Below, piece after piece: positions 235-15,724 of a stretch of 64,000 bases of DNA. The stretch lies in NCBI RefSeq assembly GCF_026676115.1, contig NZ_JAPONB010000001.1, forward strand, positions 620,001 to 684,000. Direction: 5' to 3'. Under the pieces are notes generated by a model that worked only from the letters and a program-made list of their open reading frames with translations, was not told the origin of the DNA and did no database searches. The DNA is from Salinimicrobium sp. TH3. GTDB lineage: Bacteria; Bacteroidota; Bacteroidia; Flavobacteriales; Flavobacteriaceae. The position numbers were made by a program, and so were the translations under genes. Each line of letters opens with the position of its first letter. The first letter of the stretch is position 1.

Positions 235-1968
235 ATGAAGAAGGTAAGTTTAATTTTAATGATCCTGTCGTTGGCAGTTCTTTCCTGCAAGAATTCAACA
301 ACGACTGAAAATGATGAAGTGCTACTGGAAACATCCAAAGTAGGTTCTACATATGGATGTGCGCCCCCAACAGTGGATAGTGAGTGGTATAGGAAGAATA
401 ATGTTGCACCGCTCCTGGACGGGCTTGATGTGCTGCATTATCCCATTACCACAAATGATCCTAAAGCCCAGGAATATTTTAACCAGGGTCTGGTGCTTTC
501 TTATGGTTTTAACCATGCCGAGGCTGCAAGGTCTTTTTACTATGCTACCAGACTGGATCCCGAATGTGCTATGTGCTTTTGGGGCTTCGCTTATGTTTTG
601 GGGCCAAATTACAACGCGGGAATGGAGCCCGACAATTATGAGCGGGCTTATGACGCCATTCAGCAGGCTGTTACTCTTTCAGATAAGGTTACAGAAAAAG
701 AAAAAGCCCTTATCGATGCCCTTGCCCAGCGGTATGTTCCGGAACCCGTGGAAGACCGTCGGGAACTGGATGTAAGGTATTCTGCTGCGATGGAAGATTT
801 GTTTAACAGGTATGAGGGCGATCCAGAAATAGCAGCCCTTTATGCCGAATCTGTGATGGATCTGTATCCCTGGAATTTATATGATAAAGAGGGAGAGGCC
901 AGGGAGTGGACCCCAAAGGTGATCATGCTGCTTGAAAAAGTGATGAAGGATTTTCCCGACCATCCGGGAGCCCATCACTTTTACATACATGCTACAGAGG
1001 CTTCAAAGACTCCCGGGAGGGCGCTTGGTAGTGCAAAAAAGTTTGATGAAGGCTTAGTGCCGGGTGCCGGCCATCTACTTCATATGCCCTCACATACCTA
1101 TATCCAGACGGGAGATTATCACAAGGGTAGTTTAGCTAATTTAAGAGCGGTGGAAAGAGATAGTGCTTATGTTACCCTCTGTCATGCACAGGGCGCATAT
1201 CCTTTGGTTTATTATCCGCATAACTACCACTTTCTCGCTGCAACCGCGACTCTGGAAGGCAATAGCAAATGGGCCCTTATGGGTTCCGAAAAACTGGCTA
1301 AGAAAATTCATCCCGATATCATGACAGAACCGGGGTGGTCTACCCTGCAACACTATTACATGATCCCATATTTTGTAGATGTGAAGTTTGCAAAATGGGA
1401 TAAGATCCTTGCAAGGCAAGTGATAGATACTTTATTATATCCTGAAGCAATTTCCCGCTATGCTCGCGGTATGGCTTACCTGGGTAAAAAAGATTTACAG
1501 AAGGCGAAGGAAGAACTAAAGAAGCTAAAAGTCCTGGAAAAGGATGAAAGGCTGGCAGAAATGATGATATGGGAGATCAATTCCATGAAGACCATTGTAG
1601 AGATTGCCAGGAAAGTACTCGAGGCTGAAATTTTAGCCAGCGAAGAACAATTTGACAGGAGCATAATTTTGCTGGAGGAAGCTGTAGCTTTGGAAGACAG
1701 TCTGAATTTTCAGGAACCGCCGGATTGGTTTTTCTCGGTTCGCCACACCCTTGGAGCTGTACAAATAGAGGCCGGAAGATATCCGGAGGCGGTTAAGACT
1801 TTAAAAAAGGACCTGGAGATCCTGCCAAAAAACGGATGGGCACAACACGGGCTGAAACTGGCCTATGAAAAAATGAATGACCGGGAAAAAGTTCTGGAGA
1901 TGGAAACTGCCCTTAAGGATTCCTGGACCACAGCAGATGTGGTGATAAATACCTCCAGAATAAAATGA
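235..1968 (+). CDS. TPR-repeat lipoprotein
   Basis: This 577-residue protein starts with MKKVSLILMILSLAVLSC, a lipoprotein signal with Cys18 as the probable lipidated residue, so it should sit in the periplasm or outer membrane. The start at 235 is chosen because it gives this signal peptide and has GGAGGA just upstream; the frame is open back to 148. The body is almost entirely alpha-helical with tetratricopeptide-like pairs, such as EAARSFYYATRLDP near residue 85 and YPEAVKTLKKDLEILP near residue 530. It belongs to a family of about 550-600 residues common in Bacteroidetes and usually annotated only as TPR protein. TPRs mediate protein-protein contacts; the partner is unknown. It appears monocistronic. 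Confidence 0.8.
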   Translation: MKKVSLILMILSLAVLSCKNSTTTENDEVLLETSKVGSTYGCAPPTVDSEWYRKNNVAPLLDGLDVLHYPITTNDPKAQEYFNQGLVLSYGFNHAEAARSFYYATRLDPECAMCFWGFAYVLGPNYNAGMEPDNYERAYDAIQQAVTLSDKVTEKEKALIDALAQRYVPEPVEDRRELDVRYSAAMEDLFNRYEGDPEIAALYAESVMDLYPWNLYDKEGEAREWTPKVIMLLEKVMKDFPDHPGAHHFYIHATEASKTPGRALGSAKKFDEGLVPGAGHLLHMPSHTYIQTGDYHKGSLANLRAVERDSAYVTLCHAQGAYPLVYYPHNYHFLAATATLEGNSKWALMGSEKLAKKIHPDIMTEPGWSTLQHYYMIPYFVDVKFAKWDKILARQVIDTLLYPEAISRYARGMAYLGKKDLQKAKEELKKLKVLEKDERLAEMMIWEINSMKTIVEIARKVLEAEILASEEQFDRSIILLEEAVALEDSLNFQEPPDWFFSVRHTLGAVQIEAGRYPEAVKTLKKDLEILPKNGWAQHGLKLAYEKMNDREKVLEMETALKDSWTTADVVINTSRIK

Positions 1969-2159
1969 TCGTTTCGTGAAGGTATAGTAGAGTTTCAAAT
2001 AAGGATAAAAGTCCTGCAGAGATGTAGGGCTTTTAATATTCTCAGGAATTCTTCATCAGAGGCAGCCAGGAGAGGGTTATATATTGAAAATTAACTTGTT
2101 ATCATGTTAAAAATTATTTATTTTACAGATTATTTGATGTTTCCATAAAATATTATGAA

Positions 2160-3053
2160 ATGAATAGAGTATTTATTAATGGTTTAAAGATAATAGGATT
2201 ATTTCTACTGGGCTTTCTGTCAGTAATCCTTTTATTGATGTATACCGGAGTGATCTGGAGGTCGCCGGAGCACTATTCTGTTGCAGCCGTAAAGGATTTT
2301 AAACAACCTGTAATGAGCATGGAGGAGTACAGCAACGTACCCGGCCATCGCCGACCCTATACTTTCCACCTCAGTAAAGGCGAAGGGGAAGCATATATCG
2401 TGGGAATTGAGCATACAAAAGATACAAACGACCCGCAGCTCGACACTATAAACAGGATCTGGGAAGATTTTAAACCCAATGTGGTATTGGTAGAAGGACG
2501 ATTGGGTTTTTTGTTTAGCGGAATCCAGGATCCTGTAAAGACACATGGAGAAGGAGGCAGGGTGATAAGCCTGGCCAGGCGGGACAATGTGAAATTCTAT
2601 ACCTGGGAACCTCTTAAGCAGGATGAGGTGAATATGATGCTTAAGCGTTTTCCTGCTGAAAAAGTAGCACTCTTTTATTCCCTAAGACCTTACCTGAGCA
2701 ACTATAGGTATGGTAGACCTGCAAATCCGACTAAGAATTTACAGGGTTACATTGACAGCAGGACCGACTATGATGGTATAAGAGGAGAGATAACCACAGT
2801 TGCACAGGTAGACAGTATATGGGCGGCAGATTATCCGCAGGAAAAGGACTGGCGGGATTCGACCGATCAATTCGGTTGGCCAAAAGGGGAGCTTTCAGAA
2901 ATGGCGGCGTATTCCAATGAGCTGCGGAATATCCACATGTGCACGGCCATTCTTGAACTCATGGAGCAGGGGAAAAAGGTATTTGTAAGCATGGGTTCCA
3001 GCCATGCCTACAGGATCGAAAATACTTTAAAGGAGGAGCTTAAAAAAGAGTGA
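2160..3053 (+). CDS. Membrane-anchored TIKI/TraB-like protein
   Basis: This 297-residue protein has one N-terminal membrane segment (about residues 10-30) and a soluble domain predicted outside the cytoplasm. The spaced motifs GIEH (82-85), VEGR (101-104) and GSSH (His about 282) match the layout of the TIKI/TraB/PrgY/GumN superfamily. In that superfamily a Gly-x-x-His, a Glu and a second Gly-x-x-His build the active site of putative metal-dependent proteases. Assignment to the superfamily is moderately firm; the substrate and even catalysis are unproven. The gene stands alone, with gaps of about 190 bases upstream and 90 downstream, and points toward the opposite-strand uspA-like gene. Confidence 0.6.
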   Translation: MNRVFINGLKIIGLFLLGFLSVILLLMYTGVIWRSPEHYSVAAVKDFKQPVMSMEEYSNVPGHRRPYTFHLSKGEGEAYIVGIEHTKDTNDPQLDTINRIWEDFKPNVVLVEGRLGFLFSGIQDPVKTHGEGGRVISLARRDNVKFYTWEPLKQDEVNMMLKRFPAEKVALFYSLRPYLSNYRYGRPANPTKNLQGYIDSRTDYDGIRGEITTVAQVDSIWAADYPQEKDWRDSTDQFGWPKGELSEMAAYSNELRNIHMCTAILELMEQGKKVFVSMGSSHAYRIENTLKEELKKE

Positions 3054-3140
3054 AAAATAAAGGATAACCTGGCGATCTGTCAATCTTCTTACAAAGATTG
3101 CATCTCAATTTGTTGCTTAAAAAATGTGAGCCAGTCTCAT

Positions 3141-3587
3141 TTACTCCTCAATGGGTATAGCCAATATCGGAATGCTGGCTTTCTTCACTAATTCCAGAGA
3201 AACGCTTTCCTGCAAAAGGTTGTGTAGAAAGCTGTGTTTATGTGTACCTACAATGAGAAGATCGCAATTTAGCTTTTGTGCCTCTTCCAAAACAGCTTCT
3301 ACAGTAGAACCCTGGATGAGCAGGGCTTCTTTTTCTATATCCCCACCCAAAAAATTGTCACAGTACATTTGCAGGTTACGATGTTCTTCTCTGAACTCTT
3401 CGGCCTTAAAATCCCTGATGTATTGTGGCCCGGGTTCATAACCCACAAAATCGGGATCGGGTTCTGCCACGTGCAACACCCAGACTTTGGCACCGAACTT
3501 TTCTGCCAGGCCATCGGCATAACCGAGCAAATCTCCTACGGCGTCATTAAAATCTACTGCTACTAATATGTTCTTTAGTTCGTTCAT
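3141..3587 (-). CDS. UspA-family universal stress protein
   Basis: This is a single-domain 148-residue UspA. It opens with ILVAVDF and ends with the typical strand PILAIPI. The frame is open upstream to 3716, but the added residues are translated heptanucleotide repeats (QQATGTRQQATG), so the Met at 3587 is taken as the start. The usual nucleotide motif G-x2-G-x9-G-S/T is degraded here to VGTHKHSFLHNLLQES. The protein may therefore be of the class that does not bind ATP. Usp proteins act in the cytoplasm in stress survival; no specific partner is encoded next to it. Confidence 0.85.
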   Translation of the reverse strand: MNELKNILVAVDFNDAVGDLLGYADGLAEKFGAKVWVLHVAEPDPDFVGYEPGPQYIRDFKAEEFREEHRNLQMYCDNFLGGDIEKEALLIQGSTVEAVLEEAQKLNCDLLIVGTHKHSFLHNLLQESVSLELVKKASIPILAIPIEE

Positions 3588-3621
3588 GATGTTGGCTTTT
3601 TTAGGATTTTCTGTTCCGATT

Positions 3622-3705
3622 TTCTGTTGCCTGTGGCCTGTTGCCTGTTGCCTGGTGCCTGTTGCCTGTTGCCTGTTGCGAGTTACCTGATACCCGTTGC
3701 CAGTA
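3622..3705. repeat. Heptanucleotide tandem array (unit GCCTGTT)
   Basis: Twelve consecutive units of seven bases in unbroken phase. The main unit is GCCTGTT, with decayed variants at both ends. The array lies directly upstream of the UspA start codon. See the finding on period-7 arrays. Confidence 0.9.
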
Positions 3706-3732
3706 TTTAAGATCAATTACTAACAAGGTCAC

Positions 3733-3766
3733 ACTGACCATTGACCACTGCCACTGATCACTAAAT
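3733..3766. repeat. Heptanucleotide array (unit ACTGACC)
   Basis: Units ACTGACC, ATTGACC, ACTGCC (one base short), ACTGATC and ACTAAAT. It ends where the next minus-strand gene stops. Confidence 0.75.
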
Positions 3767-3767
3767 A

Positions 3768-4688
3768 CTAGTACTCCTTCTTCCTGTCTACTTCATTCTC
3801 CAGGTTTTTCCCTTCCTGCATTAAGCGAAAATTCTTCAGGATCTGTGGAGTTACGGACTCTATATTGGTGGTACTGGCGATATGCGGGGAAATCCTGATC
3901 TTTTTATTGTTCCAAAATGGATGTCCTTCTGGCAAAGGTTCTTTCCTGAAAACATCCAATGCAGCGCCCGAAAGGTGGCCATTGTTAATCATTTCCAGCA
4001 GGTCATCTTCTACAAGATGCTCCCCCCGAGCCACGTTGATCACATACGCCCCCTTAGGTAGCTTCTCAAAAAGGTGTTTATTTAATATGTTTCTTGTCTC
4101 GGAAGTAAGAGGCAGTAAATTCACCAGCACCCTGCTGTCTTTCAGGAAATCCTGCAACTGGTCATCCCCGTGATATTTGGTCACTCCCAGGATCTCTTTA
4201 TTAGTGCGGGACCAGCCGGTGACATTGAATTTGTTCTGAATAAGTTTTTCGGCTACCCCTACACCTAAAACACCCATGCCCATAATCCCTACCTGTACTT
4301 CTTCGGGTCGTAAATAGGAGGTGGGATTCCATTCCTTGCTGCAATGATGTTCTGCGAGATTGCGCAGGTGTTCAAGAACCAAAGAAAGGACAAAGACACT
4401 CATATCTTTCGTAAGCTGCTCATCTACCAGACGGGTAATACGAATGTGTTGCGGAATCTCCTTATCACCTATGATATGATCTATTCCTGCTCCCATGGAC
4501 GCGATCACTTTTAAATTTGGATAATCCCGAAAAGCTCCGTGGGGATGTTTCCAGGACAGGGCAAATTCCACCTTTTTAGGGTCTCTAACTTCGGGATACA
4601 CCTCCAGATCAAGATCGGGTGCTTTTTCTTTCAAAGCTTCCACCCAGGGTTTTGAATCTTTATGGGAAGTGATGATAAGGAATGACAT
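3768..4688 (-). CDS. D-2-hydroxyacid dehydrogenase (glyoxylate/hydroxypyruvate reductase type)
   Basis: This 306-residue protein has the size of GhrA-like reductases, which reduce glyoxylate or hydroxypyruvate with NAD(P)H in the cytoplasm. The nucleotide-binding motif is GIMGMGVLGVGVAEKL (near residue 135). The expected catalytic residues are visible: Arg in INVARGEHL, Glu in FRKEPLP and His in SPHIAS. The WSR sequence after the Rossmann motif (GWSRT) fits NADPH preference as in GhrA. Heptad arrays flank it on both sides, and it seems to be transcribed alone. The subfamily assignment is good; the physiological substrate is inferred. Confidence 0.85.
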   Translation of the reverse strand: MSFLIITSHKDSKPWVEALKEKAPDLDLEVYPEVRDPKKVEFALSWKHPHGAFRDYPNLKVIASMGAGIDHIIGDKEIPQHIRITRLVDEQLTKDMSVFVLSLVLEHLRNLAEHHCSKEWNPTSYLRPEEVQVGIMGMGVLGVGVAEKLIQNKFNVTGWSRTNKEILGVTKYHGDDQLQDFLKDSRVLVNLLPLTSETRNILNKHLFEKLPKGAYVINVARGEHLVEDDLLEMINNGHLSGAALDVFRKEPLPEGHPFWNNKKIRISPHIASTTNIESVTPQILKNFRLMQEGKNLENEVDRKKEY

Positions 4689-6721: not shown

Positions 6722-6792
6722 ACTTTTAGCAAAACTTTAGTTGCTTTCTTTCCTTCGTCGGCTTCACTTTATTTAAATTAATGGGAAATCCT

Positions 6793-6823
6793 GAGGTGTC
6801 AAAAATGGCATTTTTGGAACCTC
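6793..6823. repeat. Palindromic mini-element with AAAATGNCATTTT core
   Basis: GAGGTGTCAAAAATG and CATTTTTGGAACCTC form a near-perfect 31-base dyad centred on one base, 20 bases before the SDR gene. The same core recurs through the window; see findings. Confidence 0.8.
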
Positions 6824-6843
6824 TTCAAAAAAAAGTTTGAGCT

Positions 6844-7740
6844 ATGAAAGATGACAACAAAGAAATGAAGGACCCACAAAAGAAAGAAGCACAACCCCCT
6901 TTTGAAAATCAGGAACGGCAGCAGGCTACGCCGGGTAAAGAAAAGAAAATGCATCCCAGAGTCGATCACGGCGAGGAATCTTATAAAGGCTCGGGTAAGC
7001 TGGAAGGGAAGAATGCCATCATTACAGGAGGTGATTCCGGAATTGGTCGCGCGGTGGCCATAGCCTTTGCAAGAGAAGGAGCGAATGTCCTGATTTCTTA
7101 CCTGGAAGAACACGATGATGCCAAAGAAACTGCCAAATGGGTAATAAAGGCTGGGAAAAAGGCAGTTTTGGTGCCAGGAGATGTAAGTGAAGAAGAGCAT
7201 TGCAGCAAGATCGTCCAAAAGGCTGTAGATGAGTTTGGGCAGATCGATATACTTGTTAATAATGCAGCCTTTCAAATGGCAAGAGAAAAGATACAGGACA
7301 TTCCGAGCGATGAGTGGGATAAGACTTTTAAAACCAATATCTATTCCATGTTCTACCTGGTGAAAGCTGCCGAACCTCACATGAAACCCGGGAGTACAAT
7401 AATTAATACTACTTCTATCAACGCATATAAGCCACATCCGCAACTGCTGGCCTATGCTGCCACAAAAGGGGCTATTCAAAACTTTACAGCCAATCTCGGG
7501 CAAATTTTAGCACCAAAAGGAATTCGTGCAAACTGTGTAGCTCCGGGTCCGGTTTGGACGCCATTGATCCCGTCTACCATGCCCATGGATGAGGTAGAAA
7601 CTTTCGGGAAAGATACTCCCCTTGGCAGGCCGGGACAACCGTCTGAATTTGCGGCGCCTTTTGTACTATTGGCCTCGGAAGGTTCAAGTTATATGATCGG
7701 CTCTACCGTCCAGGTGACGGGAGGAAGACCAACAATTTAG
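6844..7740 (+). CDS. SDR-family oxidoreductase (YghA/YhdF type)
   Basis: This 298-residue short-chain dehydrogenase has a 45-residue charged N-terminal extension. The Rossmann motif is TGGDSGIGRA (near residue 59), NNAA marks the central strand, and the catalytic triad is Ser (TTSIN), Tyr and Lys (YAATKGA). The late APGPVWTPLIP loop is typical of the glucose/ribitol dehydrogenase-like subgroup (YghA in E. coli, YhdF and stress protein 39 in Bacillus). NAD(P)-dependent oxidoreduction in the cytoplasm is firm; the substrate is not known. The charged extension is common in stress-induced members. Confidence 0.85.
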   Translation: MKDDNKEMKDPQKKEAQPPFENQERQQATPGKEKKMHPRVDHGEESYKGSGKLEGKNAIITGGDSGIGRAVAIAFAREGANVLISYLEEHDDAKETAKWVIKAGKKAVLVPGDVSEEEHCSKIVQKAVDEFGQIDILVNNAAFQMAREKIQDIPSDEWDKTFKTNIYSMFYLVKAAEPHMKPGSTIINTTSINAYKPHPQLLAYAATKGAIQNFTANLGQILAPKGIRANCVAPGPVWTPLIPSTMPMDEVETFGKDTPLGRPGQPSEFAAPFVLLASEGSSYMIGSTVQVTGGRPTI

Positions 7741-10092: not shown

Positions 10093-10725
10093 TTAGAACT
10101 TTTCAGCAGTATTTTCTGCCTCAGCACGAGACAGGAAAATCTGTATCCCCAGGTTAATACCTAAAGAATGCTGGAAGTCTGTGTTTCCTCCACCCACCAG
10201 ACCATTATATTTTACGCTCGCCTCAAGAGCCACGTATTGGTTGAGGAACAGGGAATATCCCGGACCAAATCCAAAGGCAAAACCATTGGTGGATGGACCG
10301 TCTTCCACATTTACACCGGCAATACCTGCATGAGTTTCCAAAAAGAAATAACCGGTAGGTATTTTATTGCCCAGATTGATGTCTGAGGGTGCCACATAAA
10401 ATCTTGCTAAGGCCTGGACACCATACACGAAGGTATTGACAGATTCATCATCGGGTCCTTCAGAATTGTTATACCCCAGGTTCACAATTGCTCCTGCGAC
10501 AAAGGTATCGGTGAAGAAATATCCGGCCTTTGGACTTATCCCGATGTTGTATCCCGAATCTTCATTTAACCCAATGTTAATTCCGAAGAGTCCGTTGGTA
10601 GAAGTAGTGCTAAGACCACTTCCAATGTCGGCCCCTAGCATAAAATTTCCTTCCTGCAATTGCCCATGGGAAATATGGGTGAATCCAAAAATCATCAAAG
10701 TCGATAGAAGTAAAATTTTTTTCAT
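10093..10725 (-). CDS. Outer-membrane beta-barrel protein
   Basis: This 210-residue protein has a Sec signal (MKKILLLSTLMIFGFTHISHG, cleaved near residue 21) and a body of alternating short β-strands rich in Gly and aromatic residues, for example GYNIGISPKAGYFF and GFGPGYSLFLNQYVALEAS. This is the pattern of the OmpA-like/porin-family eight-stranded barrel domains. The last strand is followed by a polar tail (SRAEAENTAEKF), so the usual terminal aromatic is the final Phe. It sits alone between its terminator and the divergent leader region of the metY operon. No specific function can be given. Confidence 0.75.
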   Translation of the reverse strand: MKKILLLSTLMIFGFTHISHGQLQEGNFMLGADIGSGLSTTSTNGLFGINIGLNEDSGYNIGISPKAGYFFTDTFVAGAIVNLGYNNSEGPDDESVNTFVYGVQALARFYVAPSDINLGNKIPTGYFFLETHAGIAGVNVEDGPSTNGFAFGFGPGYSLFLNQYVALEASVKYNGLVGGGNTDFQHSLGINLGIQIFLSRAEAENTAEKF

Positions 10726-10959: not shown

Positions 10960-10991
10960 TTGTTCCTTAAAGTTTTCTGTCGTTAACTTTG
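10960..10991 (+). promoter_or_regulatory. Promoter of the Met/Cys leader and metY operon
   Basis: TTG (10960-10962), 21 bases, then TAACTTTG (10984-10991) match the Bacteroidetes consensus TTG-N17-23-TAnnTTTG. Transcription should begin near 10997, about a dozen bases before the first leader start codon. Confidence 0.75.
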
Positions 10992-11009: not shown

Positions 11010-11078
11010 ATGAAACAGGTAATTTGTAATATGATGTGCATGATGTGGAGAAAGTCCGCAGCGCGTCCTATTGCATGA
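11010..11078 (+). CDS. Met/Cys-rich leader peptide 1
   Basis: This is a 22-codon ORF, MKQVICNMMCMMW followed by RKSAARPIA and a TGA. Residues 6-12 read C-N-M-M-C-M-M, so six of seven codons are Met or Cys. It follows a consensus promoter by about 18 bases and is followed by an intrinsic terminator at 11099. It heads the methionine operon. This is the classic layout of a transcription-attenuation leader. GCAGCG (11058-11063) within its second half can pair with CGCTGC (11106-11111) of the terminator's left arm. A ribosome stalled at the Met/Cys codons would leave that segment free and prevent termination. Confidence 0.8.
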   Translation: MKQVICNMMCMMWRKSAARPIA

Positions 11079-11098: not shown

Positions 11099-11129
11099 AA
11101 AAAGCCGCTGCCACCGCAGCGGCTTTTTT
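11099..11129 (+). terminator. Attenuator terminator 1
   Basis: AAAAAGCCGCTG / CAGCGGCTTTTT with a six-base loop and a T run. It lies 20 bases after leader peptide 1 and well before any structural gene. Its left arm contains the target of the proposed antiterminator. Confidence 0.85.
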
Positions 11130-11148: not shown

Positions 11149-11177
11149 GAGGCGCCAAAAATGCCATTTTTAAGACC
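11149..11177. repeat. Palindromic mini-element with AAAATGNCATTTT core
   Basis: GAGGCGCCAAAAATGC and CATTTTTAAGACC lie between the first attenuator and leader peptide 2. It is the same family as the element at 6793. Confidence 0.75.
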
Positions 11178-11216
11178 CTTTACAAACTAAAGCTGATGAC
11201 AGCTAAAGCAGAAAAA

Positions 11217-11309
11217 ATGAGAATTAACCCGGTAACAGCAATGATGATGTGTTGTATGATGTGCATGATGTGCGCAGGAAATCGCTATTGCCAAAAGATG
11301 AGGATCTAA
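11217..11309 (+). CDS. Met/Cys-rich leader peptide 2
   Basis: This is a 30-codon ORF whose residues 9-19 read MMMCCMMCMMC, eleven Met or Cys codons in a row, with another Cys at 25 and a Met at 28. The start at 11217 is preferred for its A-rich upstream context; an in-frame ATG at 11196 would add seven residues (MTAKAEK). TTGCCAAA (11288-11295), lying just behind the Met/Cys run but inside the ORF, is perfectly complementary to TTTGGCAA (11340-11347) in the left arm and loop of the following terminator. It is a second attenuation leader on the same presumed transcript toward metY. Confidence 0.85.
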   Translation: MRINPVTAMMMCCMMCMMCAGNRYCQKMRI

Positions 11310-11331
11310 GTTAGTTATATATTCAGTTACT

Positions 11332-11367
11332 AAAATCCCTTTGGCAAGCGAGTCAAAGGGATTTTTT
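11332..11367 (+). terminator. Attenuator terminator 2
   Basis: AAAATCCCTTTG / CAAAGGGATTTT with a ten-base loop and a T run, 22 bases after leader peptide 2. The left arm overlaps the eight-base antiterminator target at 11340-11347. Confidence 0.88.
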
Positions 11368-11452: not shown

Positions 11453-11463
11453 AGAGGAAACCC

Positions 11464-11522
11464 GGATGAGATCTCTCGGCGCATTTCCTTTCTCCGAAAG
11501 AAAATGCTCTGTCGAGATGACA
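11464..11522. repeat. 59-base dispersed repeat, copy 1
   Basis: It starts GGATGAGATCTCTCG and ends CTGTCGAGATGACA. It is repeated at 11735 with only two differences. The reverse strand begins GTCATCTCGACAGAGC, the style of common Flavobacteria intergenic repeats. Confidence 0.9.
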
Positions 11523-11682: not shown

Positions 11683-11734
11683 AACATTTAAAACTAGACA
11701 AGAAACAAAGGCAATATGGTAGAAGTACAAAACA

Positions 11735-11793
11735 GGATGAGATCTCTCGTCGCATCTCCTTTCTCCGAAAGAAAATGCTCTGTCGAGATGACA
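11735..11793. repeat. 59-base dispersed repeat, copy 2
   Basis: It is identical to the copy at 11464 except at two positions, in direct orientation 271 bases away. Again a heptad array follows immediately. Confidence 0.9.
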
Positions 11794-11888: not shown

Positions 11889-13193
11889 ATGAGTACAACA
11901 AACAATTTCTCGACCAACGCCCTTCACGCGGGGCATGACGTAGCAGCAAACGGCGGGACCCGGGCAGTTCCCATTTACCAAACAACTTCTTACGTCTTCA
12001 AAAATTCAGATCACGCGGCGAACCTGTTTTCTCTTGCAGAACCCGGATTCATCTACACCCGACTCAACAACCCGACAAATGATGTGCTGGAACAGCGATT
12101 GGCAGCACTGGAAGGCGGGATCGCTGCTGTAGTAACAGCATCTGGAACGGCGGCCATAAGCACAACGCTGCTCACCCTGCTAAAAACCGGAGATCATATC
12201 GTCGCTTCCAGCAGTCTTTACGGCGGAACTTACAATCTACTGGGCGTTACTTTACCCAGGCTCGGCATCACGACCACTTTTGTAGATCCTACAGATCCTA
12301 AAAATTTCTCTGATGCTGTAAAAGAGAATACACGTGCGGTCTTTGTTGAGTCACTTGGAAACCCAAAGCTCGATGTGCTGGACCTGCAGGCGATTTCCAA
12401 AGTGGCTAAGAAACATAAAGTGCCATTTATAGTGGATAATACAGTAGCAACTTCTGCTTTGGTCAAACCTATAGATCATGGTGCCGACCTGGTGATCCAC
12501 TCCCTCACAAAATACATCGCCGGCAATGGTACTTCTCTCGGCGGTGTCATTATCGACGCGGAAAGATTTGATTGGGCCAATGGCAAATTTCCGGAATTCA
12601 CCGAGCCGTCTCCTGGTTACCACGGACTCGTTTATCATGATGCTTTAAAAGAAGCAGCCTTTATAGCCAAAGTAAGAATCGAAGGCTTAAGAGATCTGGG
12701 AGCTGCCCTAAGCCCGTTCAATGCTTTTCAGATTATTCAGGGGCTGGAGACTCTGGAGGTAAGGATCAAAAAGCACAGCGAAAATGCATTAGCCCTGGCA
12801 AAATGGCTGGAGCAAAAAGAAGAGGTGAGCTGGGTGAACTATCCCGGGCTGGAGAGCAGTGCTTATTATGAACTGGCACAAAAATATCTTCCAAAAGGGC
12901 AAAGCGGAGTGGTGACTTTTGGAGTGAAAGGCGGCTATGAAGCTGCAAAAGTGTTAGTGGACGAAACAAAACTTTTCTCTTTGCTTGCCAATATTGGGGA
13001 TACTAAATCTTTGATCATTCACCCCGCCAGCACTACCCATCAGCAGCTAAATGACCAGCAGCAGGAATCAACCGGAGTAACAAAGGACCTGGTAAGACTT
13101 TCTGTTGGTTTGGAAGACCTGGAAGATCTTAAAGCAGACCTGGAACAGGCCCTGGCGCAAATTTCCAATAAGAAAGCAGTTAAAACAGCATAA
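11889..13193 (+). CDS. metY: O-acetylhomoserine sulfhydrylase
   Basis: This is a 434-residue PLP enzyme of the Cys/Met-metabolism family. It makes homocysteine from O-acetylhomoserine and sulfide in the cytoplasm. Visible signatures are YTRLNNPTNDVLEQR (substrate and PLP phosphate contacts), ASGTAAI, VDNT, and HSLTKYIAGNG with Lys208 as the PLP lysine. The length of about 430 residues favours the MetY (sulfhydrylase) branch over the shorter cystathionine enzymes. It is the first gene of metY-metX-hom-osmC, with gaps of 56 bases and then overlaps. Control is likely through the two upstream Met/Cys leader attenuators, although about 520 bases of repeats separate the last one from the gene. Confidence 0.93.
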   Translation: MSTTNNFSTNALHAGHDVAANGGTRAVPIYQTTSYVFKNSDHAANLFSLAEPGFIYTRLNNPTNDVLEQRLAALEGGIAAVVTASGTAAISTTLLTLLKTGDHIVASSSLYGGTYNLLGVTLPRLGITTTFVDPTDPKNFSDAVKENTRAVFVESLGNPKLDVLDLQAISKVAKKHKVPFIVDNTVATSALVKPIDHGADLVIHSLTKYIAGNGTSLGGVIIDAERFDWANGKFPEFTEPSPGYHGLVYHDALKEAAFIAKVRIEGLRDLGAALSPFNAFQIIQGLETLEVRIKKHSENALALAKWLEQKEEVSWVNYPGLESSAYYELAQKYLPKGQSGVVTFGVKGGYEAAKVLVDETKLFSLLANIGDTKSLIIHPASTTHQQLNDQQQESTGVTKDLVRLSVGLEDLEDLKADLEQALAQISNKKAVKTA

Positions 13194-13249: not shown

Positions 13250-14263
13250 ATGTTACAGGAAATCATACTTCCCGACTTTGAGAATTCCGCCGGAAGCCTT
13301 CAGAAAATCCATGTGTTCTTTCGCTTTTTTGGGAGGGAAGCGGGAACCGCACCTGTGGTGCTGGTAAACCATTCTCTTACCGGGGATGCCGATGTTACCG
13401 GTGAGAAAGGCTGGTGGAAGGAACTTGTTGGCCCCCAAAAATGTATCGACACCAACAGGTTTTGCGTCCTGGGGATCAACGTTCCCGGCAATGGTGCAAG
13501 TGGGAATAGGGAGCATCTGTTGCACAATTACACAGAATTTACAGTACATGATGTCGCCAGGATCTTTTCCACTGTTCTTGAGAAGCTGAAGATTGATAGT
13601 CTTTTTGCAGCTATAGGTGGGTCAATCGGGGGAGCTCTTGCCTGGCATCTGGCAGTGCTAAAGCCAAACCTCATACAAAACCTAATTCCAATTGCGACCG
13701 ATCTTAAGGCCACCGACTGGGTGCTGGGGCAGTGCAAGGTACAGGACCAGATCCTCAACAATTCGGTAGATCCCATTCACGATGCCCGCATGCACGCGAT
13801 GACTTTTTATCGTACTCCGGCTTCCTTTTCAGCAAAATTCCGCAGGAAAAAGAATGAACTCAATTTCCAGTTTGAAGTGGCGAACTGGCTAAGCTATCAC
13901 GGGCGTAAACTGGAGAACAGATTTGATCTGGCAGCCTATAAACTAATGAACCATTTGCTTACTACCATAGATGTTTCGGGAGGGAACGGGGAACCTTCAG
14001 CAGCTGCCAAAAAGATCAGCGGGAATATACATTTGGTGGGGATCGATAGCGATCTGTTTTTTCTTCCGGAGGAAATAAGGGGAACCTATGGTGAACTTTC
14101 CGAAGTAAAGGAAAATGTGAGTTACCACGAGATCAAATCCATACATGGCCATGATGCTTTTCTTATTGAATACGAGCAGTTATCACAAATTTTAGAATCC
14201 ATTTTTAATCAAAATAAAACACAAAATGAAGAAAATAAATATAGTTCTCTTTGGAACCGGTAA
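13250..14263 (+). CDS. metX: Homoserine O-acetyltransferase
   Basis: This 337-residue alpha/beta-hydrolase-fold acyltransferase transfers acetyl from acetyl-CoA to homoserine. It has NHSLTGDAD near residue 40, the nucleophile elbow AIGGSIGGAL with Ser125, and the late GIDSDLFF and HGHDAFLIEY segments carrying the Asp and His of the triad. These are the normal MetX features. Its product feeds MetY, encoded just upstream. The 3' end overlaps the hom gene by 38 bases, so translation of the two is probably coupled. Confidence 0.93.
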   Translation: MLQEIILPDFENSAGSLQKIHVFFRFFGREAGTAPVVLVNHSLTGDADVTGEKGWWKELVGPQKCIDTNRFCVLGINVPGNGASGNREHLLHNYTEFTVHDVARIFSTVLEKLKIDSLFAAIGGSIGGALAWHLAVLKPNLIQNLIPIATDLKATDWVLGQCKVQDQILNNSVDPIHDARMHAMTFYRTPASFSAKFRRKKNELNFQFEVANWLSYHGRKLENRFDLAAYKLMNHLLTTIDVSGGNGEPSAAAKKISGNIHLVGIDSDLFFLPEEIRGTYGELSEVKENVSYHEIKSIHGHDAFLIEYEQLSQILESIFNQNKTQNEENKYSSLWNR

Positions 14264-15302
14264 CGTAGGAAGTATCCTTGTAAATCAAATTTTGCAGGCC
14301 CGGGAATCACTTCAGCAAAAAGAAGGCCTTGAGATCAACCTGCCCGTCATCGCTAATTCTACAACAGCTTTTTTCCAAAAGGAGAATCAGCAGTCTTCCT
14401 GGGAAGCCGATCTTAAGAATTTCGGTTTTCCTTATAAGCTGGAGGATATTCTGGATTATGTGCAAAAACAGCAGTACGGGAATCTTATTGCTGTAGATGC
14501 TACGGCCAGTGAGGAATTTGTGGATAATTATCTTGATCTTATTCGTGGCGGTTTTCACATCGTTGCCGCCAATAAGGTAGCCAATACCCTTTCGTCTCAA
14601 TCCTATACTCAATTACGGGAAACGTTGCAGGAGCACAACAAGCATTTTCTCTATGAGACAAACGTGGGTGCTGGATTGCCTGTTATTGAGACCCTTCGGA
14701 ATTTTTATCGTGCCAATGAGCGGGTGACAAAGGTGAGGGGAGTATTTTCAGGTTCTCTTAGCTATATCTTCAATACCTACTGCGAGGAGGAAAAGGCATT
14801 TTCGGAAGTGCTTACCGAAGCGGCCGACAAAGGTTTCACAGAACCCGATCCACGGGTAGACCTATCCGGTAAAGATGTTGCCCGTAAGCTGTTGATCCTT
14901 GGCAGGGAACTGGGGTTACAAAAAGAGTTTGAGGAGATAAGCATTCAGGACCTGGTGCCGGTTCATCTCAACGGGCAATCTACCCTCAAGAATTTTCAAA
15001 AGAAAAAGAAGGATCTGGACCCGGTTTTTTCGAAGTTAAAAAAAGATCTAAAACGTGATGAGGTAATTCGGCATGTTGGCGAGCTGGATCTTCAAAGCGG
15101 TATTCTGGATGTGAAACTGGTGACAGAAAACAGAACTTCTGCCCTTGGCAGCCTTAAAAATGCCGATTCTTCCTTTGAAATATTTACAGAATCTTATGGC
15201 GAGCATCCTTTGGTCATTAAAGGCGCGGGAGCAGGAGCTGCAGTGACGGCACGTGGAGTTCTTACAGATTTAATTAAATTAGCCGAAAAATTACCCTCAT
15301 GA
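14226..15302 (+). CDS. hom: Homoserine dehydrogenase (monofunctional, no ACT domain)
   Basis: This 358-residue enzyme opens MKKINIVLFGTGNVGS with the dinucleotide motif GTGNVG (10-15). It carries AANKVAN and the catalytic region FTEPDPRVDLSGKDVARK. It reduces aspartate semialdehyde to homoserine. There is no fused aspartokinase and no C-terminal ACT domain, so threonine feedback is not evident. Placement in the met operon suggests a copy dedicated to methionine, while a bifunctional ThrA is probably encoded elsewhere (inference). It starts within metX and ends in a four-base overlap with the osmC-like gene. Confidence 0.92.
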   Translation: MKKINIVLFGTGNVGSILVNQILQARESLQQKEGLEINLPVIANSTTAFFQKENQQSSWEADLKNFGFPYKLEDILDYVQKQQYGNLIAVDATASEEFVDNYLDLIRGGFHIVAANKVANTLSSQSYTQLRETLQEHNKHFLYETNVGAGLPVIETLRNFYRANERVTKVRGVFSGSLSYIFNTYCEEEKAFSEVLTEAADKGFTEPDPRVDLSGKDVARKLLILGRELGLQKEFEEISIQDLVPVHLNGQSTLKNFQKKKKDLDPVFSKLKKDLKRDEVIRHVGELDLQSGILDVKLVTENRTSALGSLKNADSSFEIFTESYGEHPLVIKGAGAGAAVTARGVLTDLIKLAEKLPS

Positions 15303-15724
15303 AGATCCATCTAAAAAGGCTCAACGACAATTACCATTTTGAAACAGTTAATGAACGCGGCAATGTAATTCATCTCGATAACAAGAGTGAACCGAATTCG
15401 CAGGGAGCAAGCCCAATGGAATTGCTACTTATGGGAATTGCTGGTTGCAGTGGGATCGATATCGTAATGATCCTGAAAAAACAACAACTTGAGATGACTA
15501 ATCTGGAGATGGATGTGGAAGGTTTTAGAGTTGACGGTGCTGTTCCCAATGTTTTCACCAGAATTCACCTAAAGATAACTATTGACGGGGAAATTCCTGA
15601 AAATAAAGCAAAAAGAGCAGTAGATCTTTCCCTGGAAAAGTACTGTTCAGTTGCAAAAATGTTGGAGAAAACTGCAGAGATCACTACAGAAGTCATCCTT
15701 AACGGTTCGCCTGTAAAGAAATAA
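15299..15724 (+). CDS. OsmC-family protein
   Basis: This is a 141-residue OsmC-fold protein. It has GASPMELLLMGIAGCSGIDI, broken here as the helix bearing the conserved Cys, and the second motif EKYCSVAKML with a second Cys. The pair is the redox site of OsmC/Ohr proteins that reduce peroxides with thiols. ATGA overlap with hom shows it is the last gene of the methionine operon. A role in sulfur-compound or thiol metabolism is suggested by the context but not demonstrated. Confidence 0.85.
   Translation: MKIHLKRLNDNYHFETVNERGNVIHLDNKSEPNSQGASPMELLLMGIAGCSGIDIVMILKKQQLEMTNLEMDVEGFRVDGAVPNVFTRIHLKITIDGEIPENKAKRAVDLSLEKYCSVAKMLEKTAEITTEVILNGSPVKK

Follow-up and report, generated by a model that had tools for sequence, protein, structure and literature searches.

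Two Met/Cys-codon leader peptides, probably attenuators in series, upstream of metY-metX-hom in Salinimicrobium sp. TH3 and their apparent exchange with SAM-I at metY

The DNA discussed here is a stretch of 64,000 nucleotides from Salinimicrobium sp. TH3, referred to as the window, and its nearest named relatives are Salinimicrobium. It carries metY, a metX-like gene and hom, followed by an OsmC-like gene that overlaps the end of hom by 4 nt. Upstream of metY there are two short ORFs rich in Met and Cys codons, leader 1 and leader 2, each followed by an intrinsic terminator, and a promoter element precedes the pair. Models R1 and R2 were made for leader 1 and leader 2, respectively. The features are listed below.

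10984 to 10991, forward: Bacteroidota-type -7 element TAACTTTG, which fits TAnnTTTG
11010 to 11078, forward: leader 1 ORF, MKQVICNMMCMMWRKSAARPIA*; 138.8 bits with model R1, whose training set includes this row
11031 to 11045, forward: leader 1 Met/Cys run MMCMM (translation)
11044 to 11049, forward: leader 1 segment 1, TGTGGA, which pairs with TCCGCA at 11055-11060
11055 to 11063, forward: leader 1 segment 2, TCCGCAGCG, of which GCAGCG at 11058-11063 pairs with segment 3
11099 to 11128, forward: leader 1 intrinsic terminator, with segment 3 CGCTGC at 11106-11111
11217 to 11309, forward: leader 2 ORF, MRINPVTAMMMCCMMCMMCAGNRYCQKMRI*, from ATG 11217 to TAA 11309; 167.1 bits with model R2, whose training set includes this row
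11241 to 11273, forward: leader 2 run of eleven Met/Cys codons (translation)
11282 to 11295, forward: leader 2 segment 2, TCGC-TA-TTGCCAAA
11332 to 11365, forward: leader 2 intrinsic terminator, a stem of 14 pairs, with segment 3 TTTGGCAAGCGA at 11340-11351
11889 to 13193, forward: metY, O-acetylhomoserine sulfhydrylase, OAH/OAS sulfhydrylase subfamily TIGR01326, above the curated cut-off
13250 to 14263, forward: metX-like homoserine O-acetyltransferase, TIGR01392 with E 3.9e-57, below the curated cut-off
14226 to 15302, forward: hom, homoserine dehydrogenase, below the curated cut-offs
15299 to 15724, forward: OsmC-like gene, below cut-off

A preliminary description of this DNA had drawn attention to leader 2. 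The run it reported, MMMCCMMCMMC at residues 9-19, is found there when ATG 11217 is taken as the start, and the terminator that it placed behind the ORF is present. ATG 11217 is the start kept among close relatives; an in-frame alternative lies upstream at ATG 11196. The description also proposed an 8-base pairing, and TTGCCAAA (11288-11295) is indeed complementary to TTTGGCAA (11340-11347), but the antiterminator helix is longer. It consists of 12 pairs with a 2-nt bulge between 11282-11295 and 11340-11351, the extension being formed by TCGC (11282-11285) and GCGA (11348-11351), and folding gives 11.5 expected pairs. The leader described is real; however, it is one of two leaders in series, and leader 1 had been overlooked.

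The two leaders have an exact 17-mer, ATGATGTGCATGATGTG, in common (11031-11047 and 11256-11272). The pattern ATGATGTGYATG occurs twice in the 3.69-Mb genome, once in each leader, and the reversed pattern, taken as a control, occurs once. TAnnTTTG, which we take to be the consensus of the Bacteroidota -7 element, was sought in rows with at least 100 nt of upstream sequence. It is found in the 110 nt before leader 1 in 46 of 59 rows, 36 of these at 26-28 nt, and in 6.5% of shuffles. In the 110 nt before leader 2 it is found in 0 of 51 rows, and likewise in none of that interval in the window. Since a single promoter element lies ahead of the leader pair, the two attenuators are probably arranged in series on one transcript with two terminators before metY-metX-hom. 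The nearest long ORF upstream of the leaders (10093-10725) is on the opposite strand, so the terminators are not the end of its transcript.

The trp, his, phe, thr, leu and ilv operons of Proteobacteria are controlled by ribosome-dependent leader-peptide attenuators, and this form of control is classical. Both units in the window have a run of cognate codons in a short ORF and a terminator before the first structural gene, and on this basis they are candidate members of the same class. The resemblance to trp/his-type attenuators extends to mutually exclusive helices, 2:3 and 3:4 in both leaders and 1:2 in leader 1, and to the biosynthetic operon downstream, whereas the codons here are Met and Cys, the organism belongs to Bacteroidota and two units lie behind one promoter element. 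Mixed-codon leaders are known for ilv and thr, but we know of none with Met and Cys.

Ribosome-dependent transcription attenuation that responds to the supply of Met-tRNA, either Met alone or Met together with Cys, is our main reading of the locus, with a probability of about 0.86. With an ample supply of charged Met-tRNA, and perhaps of charged Cys-tRNA, a ribosome would cross the Met/Cys codons, reach the stop codon and mask segment 2, segment 3 would then pair with segment 4, and transcription would terminate. When charged tRNA is scarce, the ribosome would stall in the run, segment 2 would remain exposed and could pair with segment 3 ahead of the synthesis of segment 4, and RNA polymerase would continue. 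Both brakes would have to be passed before metY-metX-hom is reached. A point against this reading is that internal initiation could occur at the repeated AUGs. Because attenuation in its classical form works only if RNA polymerase is closely followed by a ribosome, the leaders also lend themselves to testing whether transcription and translation are coupled in Bacteroidota.

Evidence that the leader ORFs are read comes from codon phase. The distance from a fixed column to segment 2 varies from 32 to 41 nt in leader 1 and from 38 to 65 nt in leader 2, yet 56 of 59 distinct leader-1 rows and 48 of 56 distinct leader-2 rows agree in phase modulo 3, and the length of the run changes mostly by whole codons. 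All phases are represented in the control interval, from segment 2 to the terminator. Met accounts for 20.6% (leader 1) and 26.2% (leader 2) of residues in the reading frame but never exceeds 0.6% in the other two, and no scored leader has fewer than 3 Met. The leader ORFs thus appear to be under selection as coding sequence. For 7 of 59 leader-2 rows the script recognised no terminator, and these rows were omitted from the frame and duplex, last-permissive-codon, promoter and Cys counts.

The same evidence bears on the suggestion that the region is a riboswitch of a new kind, with methionine, SAM or homocysteine as ligand, and that the ORFs are incidental. A long conserved hairpin spans most of the leader-1 ORF, and a SAM riboswitch occupies the same place in other relatives, as would fit such an element. 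However, codon-phase conservation and frame-specific enrichment of Met need translation, and Rfam gave no match at gathering score for the leaders, including leader families such as Phe_leader and Thr_leader; the best leader-type match was Phe_leader with 23.7 vs 55 bits. The T-box model is absent from the matches of the window and the leaders, and SAM-I (RF00162) has no match in either. A new riboswitch is very unlikely.

The only gathering-level Rfam match in the whole window is a SAM-II riboswitch (RF01726, 9772-9827, reverse strand, 56.3 bits) upstream of the divergent metK. SAM-II is present in loci of both kinds, those with leaders and those with SAM-I.

The alternative helices were compared among relatives, where the compensatory changes that the preliminary description had proposed looking for, like the conserved Met/Cys runs, are present. 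In leader 1, 94.9% of the cells of the antiterminator are paired over 59 distinct rows (slid controls, 25-55%), and 25 cells are double-changed compared with 7.9 in shuffles (0/500 as high), although the cells in such counts are not independent because the rows share common ancestry. Segments 2 and 3 change jointly, as GCAGCG/CGCTGC, GCAAGG/CCTTGC and GCAGAG/CTCTGC. The number of antiterminator pairs with a double change and the number of further pair types were within the range of shuffles (224/500 and 312/500). The 1:2 helix of leader 1 also covaries, with 92.1% of its cells paired (0/500 shuffles as high) and its count of pairs with a double change within shuffles (107/500), and so does the 3:4 helix of the terminator.

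For leader 2, the antiterminator is 89.0% paired, with a covariation of 0.190 vs 0.149 in shuffles (0/500) and 9 double-changed cells vs 4.5 (9/500 shuffles as high); further pair types are within shuffles (173/500). Its terminator is 98.5% paired and covaries strongly (0.499 vs 0.288), again with further pair types within shuffles (435/500). Covariation therefore suggests that the 2:3 and 3:4 helices are mutually exclusive, less strongly for leader 2 and not by every measure. The duplex of segments 2 and 3 in the window gave p 0.03 for leader 2 and 0.144 for leader 1 against 200 dinucleotide shuffles, and single-locus duplex energies reached p<0.05 in 25 of 60 leader-1 rows and 37 of 52 leader-2 rows. 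Single-locus comparisons of this kind are too weak to settle the matter: the duplex in the window alone is modestly above shuffles, and it is conservation that carries the case for the antiterminators.

Nascent RNA was folded ahead of the ribosome and before the right arm of the terminator is made, with the ribosome edge assumed 12 nt past the start of the A site. Segment 2 is able to capture segment 3 when the A site lies within the run of Met/Cys codons and unable to do so when the A site is at the stop codon. Leader 1 is permissive up to Trp 11046, while in leader 2 capture falls after Cys 11271 and is gone after Gly 11277. In the window segment 2 is likewise free with a ribosome upstream of the run, so folding sets only the downstream boundary. 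Among relatives, the last permissive codon is at +2 after the last Met/Cys codon in 46 of 59 distinct leader-1 rows and at 0 to +3 in 55; for leader 2 it is at 0 to +3 in 34 of 49 distinct rows, the other 15 mostly having Cys codons inside segment 2. These counts are observed values without a shuffled comparison.

Folded to equilibrium, the complete leader adopts the terminator in every case, and the decision can therefore only be a kinetic one. With no ribosome, leader 1 forms the 1:2 hairpin, although its 1:2 numbers are approximate since folding used 11045-11050 as segment 1 when the actual range is 11044-11049. Leader 2 of the window lacks a 1:2 hairpin and keeps 2:3 (11.5 pairs), so an untranslated leader 2 is predicted to read through.

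Peptides rich in Met and Cys are capable of binding Cu(I), and Cys-rich leader peptides that respond to copper are known in Bordetella. Both facts would suit a nascent peptide that binds metal and so responds to copper or to thiol-reactive stress, not to tRNA charging. However, the genes downstream produce methionine precursors, the switch point tracks the end of the codon run, and the leader-2 peptides, apart from the run and the part corresponding to segment 2, are highly variable. It is highly improbable that the leaders are metal sensors.

How closely the leaders are tied to metY was determined with a pattern scan for an ORF of 8-80 codons with at least 5 Met/Cys in 9 and a terminator 5-45 nt past the stop codon. 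Scanned on both strands, the window has exactly two matches. Among 80 named relatives, chosen as the loci most similar to the metY of the window, 73 matches were found in 45 loci, all at most 900 nt upstream of metY, and elsewhere in those 80 loci there were 0 matches in 917,527 strand-bases. If the hairpins were ordinary terminators insulating metY and the ORFs were low-complexity sequence arising by chance, it would be fitting that both hairpins in the window resemble strong terminators, but the terminators lie downstream of a conserved promoter element, the pattern is confined to the region before metY in these loci and segment 2 covaries with segment 3. We give insulation hardly any credence.

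Attenuation by Met-tRNA supply is also in keeping with the distribution of the leaders. With thresholds of about 45 bits for R1 and about 44 bits for R2, leader 1 is found in 34 of the 80 loci and leader 2 in 45; 33 loci carry the pair and 46 carry one leader or more, 6 of these 46 being from genomes of training rows (L086, L087, L088, L091, L098 and L100). SAM-I lies directly upstream of metY in 32 of the 34 loci without leaders. The remaining two are L089, in which the contig ends 383 nt before metY, and L157. SAM-I before metY was found in 0 of the 27 leader loci scanned, out of 46. The 80 loci were chosen by similarity to the window, so these proportions are no survey of the family. In a quick metY protein tree, with two other rows omitted and weak deep branches, the leader and SAM-I groups need two changes.

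A set of 30 metY loci that overlaps the 80 comprised 12 with leaders, 15 with SAM-I, 2 with neither (L027 and L029) and 1 that was cut short. Of 13 additional loci from the family, 8 have SAM-I, 3 have leader-like ORFs with terminators (L170, L173 and L177) and 2 have neither (L167 and L172). Together with L157, these four are the metY loci found without a leader and without SAM-I, a point against the main reading. L157 has its full upstream sequence, with neither element before metY, and L167, of the same family, has a SAM-II riboswitch just upstream of metY and no SAM-I or leaders.

Searches with the models were made more widely. R1 passed E 1e-3 in 142 of 397 genomes of the family, where matches below about 45 bits resemble generic terminators and were not counted. 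Among 30 loci from this family-wide search, 27 have a Met/Cys-rich ORF and a terminator, and L081, L084 and L085 were dropped as leader loci since they have no leader ORF. Of the 27, which include 5 from the R1 training set (G000, G005, G009, G031 and G041), 23 precede a metY orthologue and one (L069) precedes a 36%-identical paralogue. Phylum-wide, R1 was found in 15 of 395 genomes and, order-wide, R2 in 22 of 296; all belong to the same family, and the share of each sample outside the family is not given.

SAM-I has no match in the window's own genome. It is present at least once in 9 of 12 genomes of the genus and never near metY where metY was located. The family PF01077 (sulfite/nitrite reductase) has no match in the window's own genome (G000) either, and from these two absences the organism may depend on reduced sulfur.

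SAM-I (S-box) and the leaders therefore appear to be exchanged at metY within one family. In different Flavobacteriaceae they occupy one and the same position before metY, but SAM-I senses SAM whereas the leaders should sense tRNA charging. So far as is known, methionine genes are mostly controlled by SAM riboswitches, T-boxes or repressors. A Met/Cys leader that is kept across genera and alternates with SAM-I at one gene would provide a clean pair of sensors, one for SAM and one for charged tRNA.

The preliminary description had suggested that shortage of charged Met- or Cys-tRNA switches on the operon. Attenuation of this kind is supported overall, and from the composition of the runs the sensing of Met stands better than that of Cys. 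Cys makes up 7.4% of leader 1 and 17.3% of leader 2 in frame, and 10.1% and 13.4% in the +1 frame. Within the runs the values are 23.2% in frame and 28.9% in +1 for leader 1, and 28.7% and 25.1% for leader 2. Part of the +1-frame Cys arises because ATG-TGY in frame yields TGT one base on. Met is in every scored run, whereas 11 of 57 distinct leader-1 runs and 2 of 49 distinct leader-2 runs have no Cys. Since Cys lacks frame specificity and some runs are free of Cys, Cys sensing is less certain than Met sensing.

A narrower form of attenuation, in which Met alone is sensed and the Cys codons are incidental, either as parts of RNA structure or as mutational neighbours in a Met run, would account for these figures, and for the leader-2 run of Salegentibacter maritimus, in which Arg, Asp, Ser and His stand between the Mets and there is no Cys. 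It would also fit L179, L180 and L181, metY loci from other families of the order, which have Met-only ORFs with terminators and a similar switch geometry before metY; these are 3 of 7 regions fetched, were chosen by eye and serve as leads only. On the other hand, Cys ranks second to Met among the residues of both run sets and is written with both codons (128 TGT and 95 TGC in leader 2), a leader of the same type precedes a cysteine and sulfite-reduction operon in G714, and the name of the MetY subfamily covers both O-acetylhomoserine and cysteine-synthase activity. Sensing of Met alone is quite possible, although we would sooner doubt it than rely on it.

The operon in G714 is one of several cases of single leaders before genes other than metY, found in L207, L208 and L209 (genus group g151, Flavobacterium-like by their leaders) and in L210 (g167). 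In L208, at 1281-1402, a Met/Cys leader with a terminator lies upstream of an operon for a hexapeptide transferase, a PALP enzyme, sulfite reductase and siroheme, and the same genome (G714) has a tandem leader pair before metY. In L209, at 1257-4593, the order is leader 1, a TonB-dependent receptor, leader 2 and metY; here the leaders are separated and apparently serve different genes. The leader in L207 precedes pieces of a Cys/Met PLP enzyme, and the one in L210 precedes a fused alpha/beta-hydrolase-aspartokinase-homoserine-dehydrogenase gene.

The fullest form of attenuation would be a dual sensor of Met and Cys charging, with two attenuators in series, that governs the synthesis of sulfur amino acids in a large part of Flavobacteriaceae, has replaced SAM-I or been replaced by it at metY, and has an RNA-peptide regulon including sulfite-reduction/cysteine, metX-hom and TonB-receptor genes. 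Its probability is lowered because Cys, unlike Met, shows no frame specificity, and we put it forward tentatively, at a little under even odds. If it holds, this lineage reads tRNA charging and not SAM at metY, and close coupling of transcription and translation in Bacteroidota is implied.

Related systems have been reported. A leader peptide, metL, has been proposed before metNIQ in Streptomyces lividans, and in the available sections of that paper a typical Rho-independent terminator is missing and termination is unclear according to the authors (PMC8079986). The preliminary description did not know a Met/Cys peptide attenuator in Bacteroidetes to have been described; with metL proposed as a methionine leader peptide elsewhere, the idea is new only in part. 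The printed metL peptide also has several Cys, but it comes from one genome, has few Met and no long run, and lies before a transporter and not biosynthesis genes. The cys operons of Actinobacteria have Cys leader peptides, in Mycobacterium without conserved terminator hairpins, and the available text finds no conserved RNA structure upstream of actinobacterial methionine operons (PMC1262725). Like the leaders described here, the actinobacterial ones are short ORFs with Cys codons before sulfur amino-acid genes; unlike them, they have their Cys runs close to the stop codon (PMC1262725).

Within the same family as the window, Flavobacterium psychrophilum shows strong clues of leader-peptide attenuation upstream of amino-acid biosynthesis operons (PMC9723704), but the available sections name no operon and the word methionine is absent from the main text; the supplements may overlap with the present case. 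Exchange of sensors at one gene among lineages has been described for T-boxes and leader peptides (PMC2965389), whereas here a riboswitch and leader peptides are exchanged at metY within one family. Leader-like sORFs are reported in B. thetaiotaomicron (PMC7366714), and a 2010 survey of structured RNAs describes SAM-II with long loops and Flavo-1 in Bacteroidetes, with no 'leader peptide' in its main text (PMC2864571). The available parts of PMC1273637, PMC9373788 and PMC6230763 describe no methionine leader peptide. As far as the literature was searched, excluding subscription journals, preprints and supplements, the conserved tandem Met/Cys form with its covarying switch and the exchange with SAM-I are new.

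Some further elements were observed. On its minus strand, L207 has two more short ORFs rich in Met and Cys (6735-6986); they lie upstream of a pair of genes on that strand which, judged by eye, resemble transporters. In the window a near-palindrome (about 11150-11177) follows terminator 1 and precedes leader 2. It is degenerate there, has the form CCAAAAATGGCATTTTTGG in several Salinimicrobium loci and in some loci is the source of the upstream ATG of leader 2. Downstream of the second terminator, in the long stretch before metY, there is a 65-nt direct repeat (11458-11522 and 11729-11793, 94% identical) near simple repeats of the CCGACAACCGAC type.
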